DNA from: Gemmata massiliana
GTDB taxonomy: Bacteria; Planctomycetota; Planctomycetia; Gemmatales; Gemmataceae
Assembly: GCA_000531095.1 (NCBI GenBank)
Contig: HG799467.1
Location: forward strand, 362,421 to 426,420
Length of the DNA: 64,000 bases
Direction: 5' to 3'
Shown here: positions 3,092 through 51,260 of the stretch, piece after piece
Numbering within the stretch: position 1 is the first letter of the stretch
Layout of the letters: every line of letters starts with the position of its first letter
Translations under genes and position numbers: made by a program
The notes under the pieces: model-generated
The model's database searches: none
Told to the model about the DNA's origin: nothing
The model's input: the letters and a program-made list of their open reading frames with translations, nothing else

Positions 3092-4822
3092 TCACGACAC
3101 CGGGCGGCCGGGCCGGCGGCCGCAGAACCCGCAGCAGAAGTGGCGCCGCTTCAGCACCGTCTTTCCGTCCTCCCTGACCAGCCGGTGGGTCTTGTCGCCG
3201 GGGTACGACTTGCGCGGACTAATCAGCTCGGCCGGGATCACGCCCGTGCCCTCGTCCTCAGCGATCCGGTCGAGCTGGATCAGGTCCTCGACAAAGGACC
3301 GGGCGTCGTCCTCGGCGCTGAGGGTCTCGTCGGCCCCGCCGGCGACCGCCGCGGCCGCCACCCCGAACCGCTTGGGCGCGGACGGCAGGTGGACGTGGAT
3401 GGTCGTGCCGAACCGGGTCGTCAGCGGGTGGAGGGGCATGGCCGGGGCGTCCTGGGCGGTCCTCTTGTATCCCTCGTTGTCCCCCTCGAACTGGAGGTGC
3501 TGGGCGGGCGCGGCGCTGGTGACCCCAAAAGCCGCTCCGGCGTGGACCCGGAGGTCGCGGGCCAGAGCCACGCCCGACTCCGGGGCCAGGATCCCGCGGC
3601 CGACGAAGCTGCTGATCAGGGCCGTTCGGTAGCGGCCCCGGAAGAGGCTCTGGTCGGCCTGGACCATTCCGGCCGCGACCTGGCTGTAGAACCCTGCCCC
3701 CACAGGGGCGATCCGGACCCCCTCGATGAGCAACCGCCCCGCGTCTCGTGAGATCGCCACCAGCTTCTCGGAGTCGTCACCGCACGCCCCCGCCGGCCCG
3801 GTCTCGAACATGGCCGCCAGCACGTCGAGAAAGGCCCCCGAGAAGACCCGCGAGAACGAGTGCACCTCGGAGGAGAGCTGGGCCGCCGGCGCGCTGGGCG
3901 GCAGGGCGGCCGGGTCCTGGTAGAAGAACGAGTTGGCGGTGTTACGAAGGCAGTCGACGTCCACGGCGTCCGGGGCGAACTGGCGGATCGCCCACCCGAG
4001 TTCGCGGGCCATCTGCGAGAGCCGGGAATTGAGTCTCAGGTCCCCGTCGGTCTGTGCGAGCACGAACTCCCGCAGGGACGGAATCTGCAGCGCGCAGAGC
4101 ATTGCGGTCATGTCCCCGAACGCTTCGTGGAGGGCGCCCACTTCAAGGCTGGCTACATCGAACAGATCGGGCTTCACGGCGTCCAGGACGGCGTGCCCCA
4201 GTTCGTGGCAGACCACGTCGGGGCTCTCCCCCGAAAAGACCGTGTTACCGTCGATGATGTCGTGAAAGAAAACCAGTCCCCTGTCGCGGGAGTAGAACGC
4301 GTTGAGGTCCACCCCGTCGTCCAGTTCCACCTGCATCGGGCGCTGAAACGTCGACCACTGCGTCCCCTCGGGGAGCAGGGGGGCCCAGAAGTTGATTCCC
4401 CGGGCCAGGGCCGAGGCCGCGTTCCAGAACAGGAAGTCGCGGGTACCCGGGTCGTACAGGTCGGGGTCGGGGCTGGCTCCGAGGATGCGCGTCTGGAGCA
4501 ACTCGTGCTCGTTGGTGGGCTCCTCGACCGAGATCGGCTCGGCCACAACCGGGTCGCGACCGCCCACGGCTTCGAGGAACGGGTCGTCCTCCCAGATCCG
4601 GATTGCGACGCCCTCTTCAGACGCGGGCAGGTGGGGCGCCTTGCCGCCCTTGACACCGGCCTTCTGCGGAACGACCTGGCTCAGTCGGCCGGTCAGTTCC
4701 TTTAGTGTCCTGTTAAGCGCCAGGAGCGCGTCACCATTCACCTCCGGCTGGGCGCTCGTGGCAGCGGGCGCGCCGTTGGTCGGCTTCGACCGCGGTGATT
4801 TCGGCTCTTTCGTGATGGCCAT
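3092..4822 (-). CDS. M4/thermolysin-like zinc metallopeptidase
   Basis: 576 residues from the ATG at 4822; earlier in-frame codons read as shadow sequence. The zinc site HELGH is at residues 206-210, and a third ligand candidate is Glu233 in GALHEAFGD, the gluzincin arrangement. The upstream NAFYSRDRGLVFF stretch resembles the NAFW segment before the M4 active site. No signal peptide is seen, unusual for a secreted M4 protease, and residues 1-100 are low complexity. The C-terminus is basic and Cys-rich (RRHFCCGFCGRR). It is the last of three same-strand genes: the HAD gene ends 55 bases upstream. The peptidase fold is well supported; whether it is an active protease or a structural relative is not known. 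Confidence 0.75.
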   Translation of the reverse strand: MAITKEPKSPRSKPTNGAPAATSAQPEVNGDALLALNRTLKELTGRLSQVVPQKAGVKGGKAPHLPASEEGVAIRIWEDDPFLEAVGGRDPVVAEPISVEEPTNEHELLQTRILGASPDPDLYDPGTRDFLFWNAASALARGINFWAPLLPEGTQWSTFQRPMQVELDDGVDLNAFYSRDRGLVFFHDIIDGNTVFSGESPDVVCHELGHAVLDAVKPDLFDVASLEVGALHEAFGDMTAMLCALQIPSLREFVLAQTDGDLRLNSRLSQMARELGWAIRQFAPDAVDVDCLRNTANSFFYQDPAALPPSAPAAQLSSEVHSFSRVFSGAFLDVLAAMFETGPAGACGDDSEKLVAISRDAGRLLIEGVRIAPVGAGFYSQVAAGMVQADQSLFRGRYRTALISSFVGRGILAPESGVALARDLRVHAGAAFGVTSAAPAQHLQFEGDNEGYKRTAQDAPAMPLHPLTTRFGTTIHVHLPSAPKRFGVAAAAVAGGADETLSAEDDARSFVEDLIQLDRIAEDEGTGVIPAELISPRKSYPGDKTHRLVREDGKTVLKRRHFCCGFCGRRPGRPVS

Positions 4823-34221: not shown

Positions 34222-35784
34222 GTGGAATCAACAAAAAACGTACCAATCGAGAACCGAATTCAGCCCACCGTGAAGTTGGTGACGGTCGTCGAGACCGCAC
34301 CAGCTCCCACAAACCGGCCCGCGTCGCGCGTGACGGCCGCGCTGGTCGCGCTCGTCCTTCTAGGCGGCGGGGCGCGGACGGCGTCGTTCCTCACGGACCG
34401 GAACTTGTGGATCGACGAGGCGATGCTCGCACTCAACCTCGTGGACCGTTCGCCGGCCCAACTCTTCGACAAGCTCGACTACAACCAGGGGGCGCCGGTG
34501 GCGTTCCTGCTGGTCGCGAAAGCGGGTATCAGCGCGTTCGGGCCGAGCGCCTGGGCGCTGCGGCTGGTACCGTTCATCGCTTCGATTGTGGGGCTGATCG
34601 CGTTTTCCGTAGTGTCCCGGCGCCTGCTCTCTCCGGGAGCGGCCGTGTTCGCAACGGCACTGTTCGCGCTGTCCCCGCACATTGTGAGCTACGCGGGCGA
34701 GTGCAAGCAGTACCAGAGTGACGCGACTCTGGCGATCGGGCTGTTCGCCGTGTCGCTGGGGTTGCTCGAAGGTAAGGGGGGCTTCTGGCGATGGTTCGCG
34801 CTGGCTGTGTCCGGGGCCGCGGCGGTGTGGTGCTCACACCCGTCGGTGTTCGTGCTCGGCGGGATCGGTACCGCGCTCCTGGTGTGGGCCGCGGTCGAGC
34901 GCGACCGGGCGCGGTTCCTGTCCGCGAGCGCGACCGTTGGGGCGTGGTTGGTGAGCTTCGGTATTTGCTACGTGCTCTGCTTGAAGCAGTTAGGCGGGAA
35001 CAAGTACCTGACCGACTACTGGGCCGGGCACTTCATGTCGTTTCCGCCGAAGGGCCTGGGCGACGTCGCGTGGCTCGTGGATCACGTGGTCGCGTTCTTC
35101 GTGGTCCCAGGCGGGTTCGGCGGGTTGATGGTGCCACTGGGCGGGTTCGCGGCCGTGCTCGCACTCGTTGGGGTGCGTGAGTTCGCACGCGAACGCTGGC
35201 CCCTGGCCGTTGCCCTCGTGATGCCGACCGTTCTGGTGCTGTTCGCGTCCAGCCTGCACAAGTACCCGATCGGCGGGCGGTTGATGCTGTTCATGGTCCC
35301 GATCGGGGGGCTACTCGTCGCACGCGGAGCGTGGGCCGTGTTCGACGCGATGAAGGACAAGAACCGCTTCGCCGCGGTTGCGCTCCTCGGGCTGTTGGTC
35401 GGGGCCAGCGCGTGGCAGACGTGGGAAGTGCTCCAACGACCCTTGCGCCACGAACAACTGGCGCCGGTGCTCGATCGAGTGCGGAGCGAGTTCCAACCGG
35501 GCGATCGCTTGTACGTGTACTACGGGGCCGGTCCCGCGTTCACGTTCTATACCCGCACCCAGTCGTTCCCCGCAGACGTTGTGGTGATGGGAGAGGAGCA
35601 CCGGGACGACCCGGCCGGGTACCTCGCCGAATTGAAGAATCTGCACGGGCGCGTGTGGGTCGTGTTCAGCCACCCGCACAATTACGAAGAGACGATCATC
35701 CGGACGGCGCTCGATTGCCGCGGGCCGTGTGAGCGCGAGGTGAAGAAGCCCGGCGCCGGGGCGTTCCTGTACCGCTTGGAGTGA
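34222..35784 (+). CDS. GT39/PMT-like membrane glycosyltransferase
   Basis: 520 residues. The GTG start at 34222 has a perfect AGGAGGT seven bases upstream, so it is preferred over in-frame upstream codons. A helix near the N-terminus is followed by LTDRNLWIDEAMLALNL, whose Asp-Glu matches the GT39 catalytic loop. About ten membrane helices follow, with SPHIVSYAGECKQYQSDATL in a loop, and a soluble C-terminal domain (GDRLYVYYGAGPAFTFYT). Such enzymes transfer sugars from polyprenyl-phosphate donors to proteins or lipids at the membrane. The acceptor is unknown. Confidence 0.8.
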   Translation: MESTKNVPIENRIQPTVKLVTVVETAPAPTNRPASRVTAALVALVLLGGGARTASFLTDRNLWIDEAMLALNLVDRSPAQLFDKLDYNQGAPVAFLLVAKAGISAFGPSAWALRLVPFIASIVGLIAFSVVSRRLLSPGAAVFATALFALSPHIVSYAGECKQYQSDATLAIGLFAVSLGLLEGKGGFWRWFALAVSGAAAVWCSHPSVFVLGGIGTALLVWAAVERDRARFLSASATVGAWLVSFGICYVLCLKQLGGNKYLTDYWAGHFMSFPPKGLGDVAWLVDHVVAFFVVPGGFGGLMVPLGGFAAVLALVGVREFARERWPLAVALVMPTVLVLFASSLHKYPIGGRLMLFMVPIGGLLVARGAWAVFDAMKDKNRFAAVALLGLLVGASAWQTWEVLQRPLRHEQLAPVLDRVRSEFQPGDRLYVYYGAGPAFTFYTRTQSFPADVVVMGEEHRDDPAGYLAELKNLHGRVWVVFSHPHNYEETIIRTALDCRGPCEREVKKPGAGAFLYRLE

Positions 35785-47534: not shown

Positions 47535-47761
47535 CGTCCCTCCGGCGAATTCGGATGCGAGGAAGGGGCCGGTTCTGGCTGACCTTCGCACGCCCGGTGC
47601 GAGCCGGTAGAATTCGCAGTTGAAGAACCCGTCTCCATCCCCCTCCCGAACGCGGAGGGCCGAACCGCTTGTGGGTTTTCTTCTCTTTCCTCTTTGTAGG
47701 AACGAGGGCCGGGGACCGGATTCTCTGTCATTGTGCGGAAGAACTTCTGGAAGGACTCGCG

Positions 47762-50700
47762 ATGTCCGATTCAAACGACCTGCTCGCCGACCTCACCGAC
47801 GATCAACGGGCTGCGGTGATGCACGGGGAGGGGCCGCTCCTGATCCTCGCGGGCGCGGGGAGCGGGAAGACGCGCGTGATCACGCGCCGGGTCGCGCACC
47901 TGCTCCGGTCCGGCGTGCGCGCGAGCAACATCCTGGCGATCACGTTCACGAACAAGGCCGCCAGCGAGATGAAGAACCGCGTCGAGAAACTGGCGCCGGG
48001 CAACCGGGTGTGGGTGAGCACGTTCCACAGCCTCGGCGCGCGCCTCCTGCGCCAGTACGCGGAGCGCCTCGGGTTCGACCGCAATTTCACCATCTACGAC
48101 GTGGACGACCGCAACAAGTTGGTGAAGGACGCACTCGAAGCGAGCGGCATGGACAACGTGAAGTTCAGCCCGGAGCGCGTCGGCAGCGCGATCAGCAAGG
48201 CGAAGAACCAACTCCTCACGCCCCCGCAGTACGAGCGCACCGCCACAGACTTCTTCCAGCAGGTCGTGGGGAAGGTGTACCACGGGTACGAGAAGCGGCT
48301 CCGCAAGGCCAACGCGATGGACTTCGATGACCTGCTGTACCTCCCCGCGATGGCGCTCAAGACGAACGAGGAGCTGCGGGCCGAACTCGACGCGCGCTTC
48401 AAATATGTGCTCATCGACGAGTACCAGGACACCAACTCGGCGCAGTACCAGATCGTCAAGCAGCTCAGCCTGAACTACCCGAACCTGTGCGTGGTCGGGG
48501 ATCCGGACCAGTGCCTGCTCCCGGGCACACTCGTCGACACCCCGAGCGGGCGGAAGCCGATCGAACAGATCCGCGACGGCGATGAGGTGATGTCCGGTAT
48601 CGGGTGGGGGAAGGTCGCGCCGATGCGAGTGGACAAGGTGATGGTTAACCCCCACCGGGGTAAGGTGATGCGGGTCACGGTCGAGGGCGGGATCGTGCTC
48701 CGGGCGACGCCGAACCACGTCTGCTTCGCCCGGCTCCAACCCGATCCCAATTTGCACCATGTGTACCTCATGTGGAAGCGCGGGGTCGGTTTCCGGTTGG
48801 GGACGACGCGCGGGGTGCGCACGAGCAAGAGCGGCCCGCTCATGTCCGGCCTCCAAGTGCGCACCTATCAAGAAGTCGCGGACGCGATGTGGATCGTGCG
48901 CACCTGCCGCTCGTCGTCCGAAGCCCGTTTCCACGAACAGTTCCTGTCGGTGAAGTACGGTATCCCGACGATGGTGTTCTTCGTTCGCGGGCGGAACATG
49001 GGGATCAGCCAGGATCTGGTCGACCGCCTCTTCCGCGAGATCGACACGTGCGCCGCGGCCGCCCGGTTGATGGCGGACTTCCATTTGGATCGGCGCTACC
49101 CGCACCACCGCCCCGGGGCCGTTACGCGCGGCGGGATCGCCCGGCGGTTCGTTCAATTCACGGTGTTCGGCGACCCGCGCCCGAAAACGGGGAAGCGGTG
49201 GCATGAGCATCGTGTTCAGGTCATTACGTCCGGTGCGGAGCTGCGGGCCAAGGCGATGGCAGCTGCGCTTCCGGTGCGTAACGGTAACAAGGGAACCTGG
49301 CGGATCGAGACGTCACGTAAGGGGTACGATGACGCACTTTTGCTCGCGGAGTCGATTAACAAGGTCGACGACTTTGAACTGGTCTCCCGCGCGCGGTTGA
49401 CCAAGTCCAAAGCGTTCCCGTTTATGCCGGCCAGCCACCTGCAACCGGGAATGGTGGTGCCCGTGTGCGTCGGGAACGGAATCGAAGAGCGCTTGGTGGA
49501 ATCGGTGGAGTGGGAAGATTACGACGGTCCTGTGTACGACCTGTCGGTTCCGGACACGCGCAATTTCGTCGCCAACGGGGTCGTGGTCCACAACTCGATT
49601 TACAAGTGGCGCGGCTCGGACATCAAAATCATCTTGGATTTCGAGCGCGACTTCCCGGACTCGCGCACCATCACGCTGGCACAGAACTACCGCAGCACGA
49701 AGTCGATCATCCACGCGGCCAGCGTGCTCATCGACCACAACAAGCAGCGCAAGAAGAAGGATCTCGTCACCGACAACCCACAAGGCGACCCGGTCCGCGT
49801 GATCACGTTCGACAACGGGCTGGACGAGGCCGAGGGCGTCGTACTGCGCATCAAGGAGGCTGCGAAGAGCGGCAAGTTCAAGTACCGCGACCACGCGATC
49901 TTCATGCGCATCAACGCGCTCACGCGGTCGCTCGAAAGCGCCTTCGTCAAGCACGGTGTGCCGTTCCAGATCGTGAAGGGGCTGGCGTTCTTCGAGCGCA
50001 AAGAGAACCGCGACGTGCTCGCGTACCTGCGGTTGCTCGCGAACCCGCAGGACACCGTGAGTTTCCTCCGCGTCGTGAACGAACCCGGCCGCGGGATCGG
50101 CAAGGTATCGCTGGATAAGCTCCAGGGGTTCGCGGCGGACCAGGAGATCGGGCTGCTGGCCGCGGCCGGACAGGTGGCGAAGATCACGGAGATCCGCGGG
50201 AAGGCTGTGAGCGGGCTCCGGGACTTCCACCGGATGATGTCGGACATGCGATCGAGGCTCGCCCTCCCGCCGCACGAACTCGTTCAACTCGTGCTGGAGA
50301 AGTCGGGCTACGAGGCAATGTTGCGCGATTCGACCGACGAAGATGACGCGGAGCGGCTCGCGAACGTGGGCGAACTCGTCACCGCCGCGAAACAGTTCTG
50401 GGACGAGGACAACACCCGCACCATTACGGACTTCCTCGAAGCAAGATCACGCTCGCGTCGGACGTCGACGGCTGGACGAGCAGGCCGATCACGTCTCCGT
50501 GATGACGCTGCACGCCTCGAAGGGGCTGGAGTTCCCCGTGGTGTACGTCCTCGCGGTGGAAGAGGGGCTGTTGCCGCACGAGCGCAGCATGGGGCGCGAC
50601 GACGAGATCGAAGAGGAGCGTCGGTTGTGCTTCGTAGGCATGACGCGCGCGATGAAGGAACTGTATATGTGCCACGCCCGGATGCGCGAGTTCCGTGGGC

Positions 50701-51104
50701 AGTTGAACTACTGCATCCCGTCCGGGTTCTTGCAGGAGTTGCCGCGCGGCGGCGTGGAGTTCATCGACCCGTCGATGGCCCGCAACGCCGCACGCACCGC
50801 GGCCGACGAGTGGCGCCTGAAGGCGAGTTCGGCCGCGAAGGACTGGGCCGATACCGGCGCCCGGCCGTTCATCCCGCCGCGGAAGCCGAACCCGGAACTG
50901 AAGCCCACCATCCCCGACGCGCCGGACACCGGACTGGCGGTGGGCGTACTAGTCCAGCACGAGGAGTTCGGCCTCGGCAACGTGACGGACGTGAGCGGCT
51001 ACGGCGCCCTGCGCCGCGTGAAGATCCGCTTCCCCGCGCACGGCGAAAAGGTCTTCGCGGGCGACAAGATCCGACTCAAGGTCGTCGGCCGCAAGAAGGC
51101 GTAG
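47762..51104 (+). CDS. pcrA: UvrD/PcrA-type DNA helicase with an intein and two frameshifts
   Basis: Superfamily 1A helicase. ATG 47762 follows GGAAGGA. Walker A is GAGSGKTRVI (residues 31-40), then TFTNKAASEM, the DEYQDTNSAQY motif and VVGDPDQ, where a 361-residue intein interrupts before SIYKWRGSDIK. Further motifs: LAQNYRST, and VMTLHASKGLEFPVVYV, plus GMTRAMKELY after two breaks. The frame is lost at about 50440-50444 (after DFLE) and again at about 50471-50477 (after KITLASDVDGW). Both look like one-base deletions. With both restored and the intein removed, the protein is about 753 residues, normal for PcrA. It unwinds DNA in repair and recombination. The C-terminal KOW-like part is GVLVQHEEFGLGNVTDVSG. 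The breaks in so important a gene may be sequencing error. Confidence 0.88.
48512..49594 (+). other. intein inside the PcrA helicase, at the VVGDPDQ/SIYKWRG motif
   Basis: A 361-residue in-frame insertion runs from Cys (CLLPGTLVDTPSGRKPIEQI) to Asn in VVVHN, followed by extein Ser. Splicing motifs: the first residue Cys, ATPNHVCF as block B, VYDLSVPDTRNFVANGVVV as block F, and HN/S at the C-terminal junction. The insertion point is the ATP-binding motif of the helicase, the usual kind of intein site. The central about 250 residues (ARLMADFHLDRRYPHHRPG) are probably a homing-endonuclease or linker region, but no clear LAGLIDADG pair was identified. It must be spliced for helicase function. Confidence 0.9.
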
Positions 51105-51111
51105 CGAGGGG

Positions 51112-51260
51112 CGAAATCCGCCACGGATAAACACAGAGAACACGGATCAAGACAGAAGGCAGGATGGCTATAAAAAGGCGCAAGGAAGAGAACAGAGATC
51201 AAAAGGCGGAGCCGCGGATAACGCAGATTACGCGGATCAAACAAGAGAAGAGCGCGTACT
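51112..51260. repeat. dispersed-repeat-like words in the spacer after pcrA
   Basis: Contains CACGGATAAACACAGAG, CAGATTACGCGGATCAA and related words typical of intergenic repeats in planctomycetes (from memory, not checked). No ORF. It is the first part of the 603-base spacer 51105-51707. Confidence 0.5.

Follow-up and report, generated by a model that had tools for sequence, protein, structure and literature searches.

The window, a 64,000-nucleotide stretch of the Gemmata massiliana genome, carries on its plus strand an open frame (47669-51130) that encodes a UvrD/PcrA-type helicase (Pfam UvrD-helicase, 2.5e-83; UvrD_C, 5e-37), with the ATG at 47762 probably serving as its start. Between the Gln and the Ser of helicase motif III, VVGDPDQ/SIYKWRG, the gene takes up an in-frame insert of 361 residues, which the initial annotation had described as an intein. 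The parts of the gene are as follows, with residues counted from the first residue of the intein:

47762..48511, plus strand: N-extein, the N-terminal part of the PcrA/UvrD helicase, ending in VVGDPDQ (Pfam UvrD-helicase, 2.5e-83)
48512..49594, plus strand: class 1 intein of 361 residues, from Cys1 to His360-Asn361, followed by Ser+1 (Intein_splicing and TIGR models, predicted fold)
48512..48742, plus strand: N-terminal half of the Hint splicing domain, residues 1-77 (TIGR01445 over residues 1-69), common to the mini-intein of genome G447
48707-48718, plus strand: block B, TPNH, residues 66-69, inside the N-terminal Hint half
48743..49126, plus strand: putative GIY-YIG-like core, about residues 78-205 (invariant residues, predicted secondary structure, structural matches)
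48764, 48794, 48800, 48860, 48872, 48890 and 48935: positions of the core residues Y85, R95, G97, R117, E121, W127 and E142, respectively
49127..49402, plus strand: accessory domain, about residues 206-297, about 90 residues long (alignment, secondary structure)
49403..49594, plus strand: C-terminal half of the Hint domain, ending in ANGVVVHN (TIGR01443; best stretch of Pfam Intein_splicing at residues 327-361)
49595..50440, plus strand: C-extein, in frame from SIYKWRG to about FLE (Pfam UvrD_C; relatives)
50441..51104, plus strand: remainder of the C-terminal helicase domain, read in a different frame (ORF 50343-51104; Pfam UvrD_C, PcrA_UvrD_tudor)

The assignment of the insert to the class 1 inteins is well supported, with profiles, predicted fold, junction residues and the empty sites of relatives all pointing the same way and bearing out the span given in the initial annotation. 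The Cys start, the block B motif, the C-terminal splicing block and the HN/S junction noted there are all present in the translation, and three models score above their cut-offs: NCBIfam intein_Nterm TIGR01445 with 26.2 bits (cut-off 24.5), intein_Cterm TIGR01443 with 35.1 bits (15.6) and Pfam Intein_splicing PF14890 with 48.2 bits (35.8). An AlphaFold2 model of the full intein, built from 33 sequences, reached a pLDDT of 92.9 and a pTM of 0.89; when it was compared with solved structures, the first six matches were RecA intein and hedgehog Hint structures (Z 18.0-18.2, rmsd 1.6-1.9, 132-138 residues), so that the similarity to Hint domains on which the intein claim had been made to depend is found in the predicted fold. 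The window genome holds a single match to the intein at E <= 0.001. In its splicing part the intein is ordinary; the main interest lies in the nested domain, which is best read as a GIY-YIG-like homing endonuclease inside inteins.

The host gene itself, a point absent from the initial annotation, is shifted in frame within 50430-50480 (at about 50440-50475), about 850 bp past the insert, where small insertions and one deletion fall within about 35 bp when the sequence is compared with those of G399, G403 and G406 (L215, L216, L218), and past these indels the C-terminal domain of the helicase goes on in another frame. Both an assembly error and a true lesion that breaks the gene would fit. If the frameshift is real, the protein would be without the last helicase motifs, spliced or not. 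The sole tRNA gene found in the window, a tRNA-Thr (ggt), lies at 34850-34935.

Spread, empty sites and selection

Within the central 220 residues of the intein (about 78 to 297), the first 120-130 recur in other inteins, as found by tblastn and pattern scans, and they do so in two main sets of hosts, UvrD/Rep-type helicases and ParB-type adenine methyltransferases. Cellular and plasmid members of the helicase set come from Planctomycetota, from proteobacterial records including Aerophototrophica crusticola, and from Nostoc, Stanieria and Thermobispora plasmids, while its phage members come from Justusliebigvirus-type coliphages, Klebsiella phages, SPO1-like phages and a 485-kb uncultured phage. 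The methyltransferase set spans planctomycete genomes, Streptococcus suis phages, a Providencia plasmid and many viral contigs. Diverged members are found on two further viral contigs, one as an intein in the helicase motif TAHK/SKG (L095, about 3794-4657) and one as an intein at another site (L096, about 3797-4660). When a maximum-likelihood tree was computed for 42 inteins, a branch (90/98) separated the 21 methyltransferase inteins from the rest; the helicase inteins were not united in a single group, and L051 and L052, both from proteobacterial records, fell inside a set of nine rows with planctomycete helicase inteins (96/98). These records are mostly metagenome assemblies, in which misbinning is possible. 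Searches of Pfam and PHROGs with 33 members gave no convincing match, with scattered hits in one or two members each (best E 0.007), and Pfam applied to five members as full inteins returned Hint-type families only. We regard the insert family as widespread, endonuclease-like and apparently unnamed.

Conservation was read from alignments of these loci. Two of them (A6 and A7) hold 32 of 57 loci (L045-L101), with near-copies and awkward or truncated matches excluded; the larger one (A8) has 48 rows, obtained from 57 distinct segments that came down to 49 without near-copies, with the window reference in place of its own copy (L001) and the truncated L097 excluded. Seven residues, Y85, M87, R95, G97, R117, W127 and E142, are invariant in 48/48 aligned members, and E121 is present in at least 90% of them. 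The invariant residues are common to members with helicase and with methyltransferase hosts, and all seven are present in the window protein.

Within the genus, the helicase is present in 19/19 genomes (the window's own included), three of which, the window's, G394 and G404, carry the intein at the pcrA site; the other 16 read GDPDQ/SIY unbroken, in keeping with the earlier statement that the insert splits this motif. The site is empty in G399, the nearest relative by N-extein (99% identical). Full 361-residue matches were found in 5 genomes among 198 relatives searched (the window's, G394, G404, G470 and G452), and a search of the phylum, covering 392 genomes, gave 2 full-length matches, the window's and that of G372. 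At the same pcrA site, G447 (L021/L033) has a natural mini-intein of 194 residues, where the endonuclease and the accessory domain are replaced by about 50 residues, and the central domain can thus be lost. Judged from the sequences, such presence and absence among close relatives is the pattern expected of a mobile or easily lost element. A further genome of the genus, G393, has an empty pcrA site (L219) and carries the insert family in a ParB-type methyltransferase intein (L022).

The flanks of the site were compared with those of the empty allele in G399. Over the 750 bp of the N-extein there are 23 base differences, 5 of which, all synonymous, are concentrated in the 30 bp next to the insert, where an even spread would put 0.9 (the 30-bp cut was picked post hoc). 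No excess of differences against G399 is seen on the C side of the insert, and only the N side looks enriched. This clustering of synonymous differences would be consistent with co-conversion during homing, a hint and no proof. As codon for the Gln that precedes the site, CAG is used in 3/3 intein-bearing alleles of the genus and in 3/16 empty ones.

Substitution rates suggest that the core is under purifying selection. Between the window and locus L017 the core has a dN of 0.062, with a dS of 1.3 that is near saturation, and the other regions have a dN of 0.074 (Hint), 0.088 (accessory domain), 0.091 (N-extein) and 0.120 (C-extein). Among eight pairs, four (L017, L020, L002, L050) have their lowest dN of all five regions in the core, and the other four do not. 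Of these eight, the four pairs that are most distant have a higher identity in the core than in the exteins, as seen for the window with L002 (core 71%, Hint 53%, N-extein 50%, C-extein 40%); against L019 and L020, core identity does not exceed that of the N-extein. Because the residues typical of the family are conserved, the central domain is probably an active homing endonuclease, a point that the initial annotation had left unclear. We think it rather unlikely that the intein splices while its endonuclease is dead in the window genome and passed on by vertical inheritance only. Such a state would go with a domain that is dispensable, as in the G447 mini-intein, and with the dS of the intein to L017 (1.2-1.6), which is not below that of the exteins (0.83-0.86), so that no recent exchange is shown for this pair; however, the seven family-invariant residues are intact in the window protein, core dN is lowest in the four pairs named above, and the nearest relative is without the intein. 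We also considered whether the intein had recently passed from one to the other of the window genome and G394; dS does not support this.

Resemblance of the core to GIY-YIG nucleases

Nucleases of the GIY-YIG type are characterized, in passages of a survey, by a GIY and a YIG motif, a central Arg and a C-terminal Glu, with three strands amid three helices (PMC1564403). The AlphaFold2 model of the insert (33 sequences) has a pLDDT of 84.5, with blocks of 10 residues in the core at 80-98 and a loop at 31-40 at only 65. Numbered within the insert, it predicts strands at 9-16, 20-27 and 52-59 and helices at 40-47, 62-76, 94-103 and 106-116. Tyr85 would thus lie on strand 1, Arg95-x-Gly97 on strand 2 and Arg117 in the helix before strand 3, which is followed by a long helix with Glu142 and then by two further helices, an order of predicted strands and helices that resembles GIY-YIG. 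In motif terms the core reads VYLM, [FWY]R[VLI]G, Arg, Glu. The Tyr of GIY has its counterpart in Y85 of VYLM, which is on a predicted strand and invariant in 48/48 members, and E142, likewise invariant in 48/48, aligns with the conserved C-terminal Glu. Sets of UvrC-type and UPF0213-type sequences align with the core such that VYLM is placed at GIY, RLG at YIG and E142 at the conserved Glu. The second motif keeps its Gly, with the Tyr replaced by Arg in 48/48 aligned members. T5orf172/MUG113-type sequences, which Pfam places with GIY-YIG, show KIG at this place, and the loss of the Tyr is therefore not unprecedented. R117, which lies in a predicted helix and is invariant in 48/48 members, is located downstream of the YIG-following Arg of known members in the profile alignments, and since it is not aligned with this catalytic Arg, our confidence in a GIY-YIG-like reading is slightly lowered.

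Structure searches were run with the insert and with the full intein as queries. Among the 50 matches listed for the insert, four cover the core, and each is either a GIY-YIG protein or titled a nuclease; their Z of 4-5 is a value that common arrangements also give:

1zg2: Z 4.8, 3.7 A, 83 residues
9u75: Z 4.3, 3.0 A, 71 residues; a restriction endonuclease by title
6seh: Z 4.2, 3.1 A, 79 residues
7cq2: Z 4.0, 4.3 A, 89 residues

Three of these (1zg2, 6seh and 7cq2) were also recovered with a GIY-YIG sequence profile. Among the 50 matches listed from predicted viral structures, five are GIY-YIG by name (ranks 5, 12, 18, 21 and 30; E 0.008-0.09), five more are intron or homing endonucleases (ranks 4, 32, 39, 46 and 47), one is a LAGLIDADG protein (rank 26), and many are without a name. 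The three at E <= 0.001, an unnamed 924-residue protein, a helicase and a methyltransferase, are presumably members of the insert family.

Profile-profile comparisons point the same way. The core scores 24.3 over 59 columns against a PF01541 set (mostly UvrC-type) and 23.1 over 18 columns against a set that is mostly T5orf172/MUG113, and each value was reached by 0/150 column shuffles; the signal is a weak one (probability 8-22%) that lacks specificity, given that a local match to LAGLIDADG scores nearly as high. In global mode the two GIY-YIG sets score 12.0 and 13.8 and the combined set 18.8, compared with 8.7 for LAGLIDADG and 2.7 for HNH. The sets comprise 16 of 17 motif-picked rows from 33 loci for GIY-YIG (mostly UvrC-type; L115 was dropped as spurious), 18 rows from 33 loci for T5orf172/MUG113, 22 from 25 for HNH, and 12 of 16 tried, out of 21 loci, for LAGLIDADG; the selection patterns for the first two demand a Y...G motif, and these sets lean that way. 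A profile search of the PDB gave one GIY-YIG hit (UvrC, E 0.77), which was lost with the larger alignment A8, where a glutathione transferase alone came up (E 0.88); the UvrC hit was hence dropped as proof of membership. When 40 genomes were searched with A8 up to E 10, none of their known GIY-YIG genes was recovered, and across Pfam, PHROGs, the PDB and these 40 genomes we obtained no significant sequence-profile match of the core to any GIY-YIG family.

Taken together, the intein signatures, the predicted fold, the empty sites, the conserved residues and the patchy distribution make it fairly likely, in our view, that the insert is a class 1 mobile intein with a nested GIY-YIG-like homing endonuclease core. 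We speak of a GIY-YIG-like core, and refrain from assigning it to that superfamily, because of the change from Tyr to Arg, the misaligned R117, the lack of a significant match, and the LAGLIDADG structures found by Foldseek (below). These same departures, along with a structural Z of only 4.0-4.8, could mean that the core has an independent nuclease or DNA-binding fold whose resemblance to GIY-YIG is one of topology alone. We hold this to be unlikely, since the hairpin and the Glu stand in the same register as in UvrC-type and UPF0213-type proteins, since the structures matched over the core are those of GIY-YIG proteins or a nuclease, and since the T5orf172/MUG113 type, too, does without the Tyr of YIG.

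The accessory domain is present in the PcrA-type inteins and absent from those of the methyltransferase type, and it is possibly DNA-binding. Its residues 213-285 are predicted to follow the order beta-beta-alpha-beta-beta-alpha, and the other 46 of the 50 structural matches listed for the insert fall on it (microcompartment shell and many other folds), which we take as a common arrangement. With the whole insert as query, LAGLIDADG meganucleases take 9 of the top 10 places among the PDB matches in Foldseek, at E 0.02-0.21 (none <= 0.001) and with a probability that reaches 0.82 over 78 columns, and these alignments, which run over 78-85 columns and are tabulated without residue ranges, would fit the accessory domain. 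It is tempting to speculate that the helicase-type inteins carry a chimeric endonuclease, made of a GIY-YIG-like cutter and a LAGLIDADG-derived, DNA-gripping half without its catalytic helix. The predicted order of residues 213-285 and the Foldseek matches would allow this; the profile test of the accessory domain against LAGLIDADG gives it no support (score 14.5, with 7/150 shuffles as high), and we consider it quite improbable. If it were true, nuclease types would have been swapped inside inteins, with the old DNA-recognition part kept.

For the core itself, a rival reading is a strongly diverged LAGLIDADG (DOD) endonuclease with motifs decayed past recognition, this being the type that most inteins carry according to passages of two papers (PMC7891396, PMC5050341). 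The Foldseek matches and a local profile score of 23.0 over 31 columns (0/100 shuffles as high) speak for it as well. However, a Pfam search of 33 members, run up to E 10, finds no LAGLIDADG family, in agreement with the earlier remark that the central region has no LAGLIDADG pair, and the global profile score is low. Moreover, the insert of the methyltransferase type has only 120-130 residues, which is short for a two-motif LAGLIDADG domain, the predicted core starts with a beta-hairpin and not with the LAGLIDADG helix, and residues invariant in 48 members do not look like decay. We therefore set a LAGLIDADG identity of the core aside, as it has neither family match nor motif, and rate it as very improbable; the pair is likely missing because a GIY-YIG-like domain and an accessory domain stand in its place. 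An HNH identity was set aside on the same grounds, with no Pfam HNH family in 33 members and a profile-profile control of 9.0 against the core, which is under the shuffle mean and reached by 123/150 shuffles.

Proposed cycle and relation to known systems

Under the reading of a mobile intein with a GIY-YIG-like endonuclease, the helicase precursor would be translated and the Hint domain would then excise itself, by an acyl shift at Cys1, a branch on Ser+1 and cleavage at Asn361, so that ligation of GDPDQ to SIYKWRG would restore helicase motif III. Recognition of the intein-free pcrA sequence may fall to the alpha+beta accessory domain, and once an empty pcrA allele was cut, the cell would copy the intein in by recombination. 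We infer the splicing, the nuclease activity and its target, as well as the roles of R117 and of the accessory domain. If this holds, inteins, too, would have acquired GIY-YIG-type nucleases, in phages as well as bacteria and in two or more host gene families, which would account for the spread of these helicase and methyltransferase inteins. The family, which is without a convincing Pfam or PHROGs model, would then offer a compact set of new site-specific endonucleases, and the alleles with the domain, with the mini-intein and with the empty site would form a matched series for studying gain and loss. The intein may represent an overlooked kind of mobile protein intron common to phages and bacteria.

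In the literature, passages of the 2006 survey place GIY-YIG members in group I introns and free-standing genes and, to that date, none in inteins (PMC1564403), and a passage of an intein review counts GIY-YIG among the endonuclease families and names no example there (PMC7765530). Among the matches listed in our search, which covered titles, the beginnings of abstracts and few subscription papers, we found no description of a GIY-YIG domain inside an intein. With the LAGLIDADG inteins PI-SceI and PI-PkoII, the window intein shares the Hint fold, an endonuclease placed between blocks B and F and the presumed way of moving; it differs from them in a core that has no LAGLIDADG motifs and another predicted topology. 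With UPF0213-type proteins, Slx1 and the N-domain of UvrC, the core is predicted to share a hairpin with VYLM and x-[VLI]-G, a helix with an invariant Arg and a long helix with an invariant Glu, and by motif the T5orf172/MUG113 type with its KIG is the nearest GIY-YIG group. Unlike the GIY-YIG enzymes, it has Arg for the Tyr of YIG, a longer stretch from the hairpin to the invariant Arg, which the profile alignments do not place on the catalytic one, and a position nested in an intein.

An intein is also associated with a GIY-YIG nuclease in the fractured-gene system, but there the nuclease intervenes in a fractured gene, whereas in the window it lies inside one continuous intein. Phage DNA methylases of actinophages likewise contain inteins, although according to passages of that report theirs hold LAGLIDADG domains (PMC9957025). 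The UvrD/Rep helicase inteins of SPO1 (gp34.33, FJ230960) and JohannJBalmer (MZ501084) belong to the same insert family and are annotated as inteins, with no endonuclease type named in the annotation lines listed; the SPO1 gp34.33 intein, unlike that of the window, is without the accessory domain. In Klebsiella phage KP13-16 (L037), where the helicase ORF runs from about 740, a GIY-YIG-like intein sits at motif III, and the same helicase has an apparent second intein in Walker A (AGTGK/.../TSTL), which by eye is LAGLIDADG-like.
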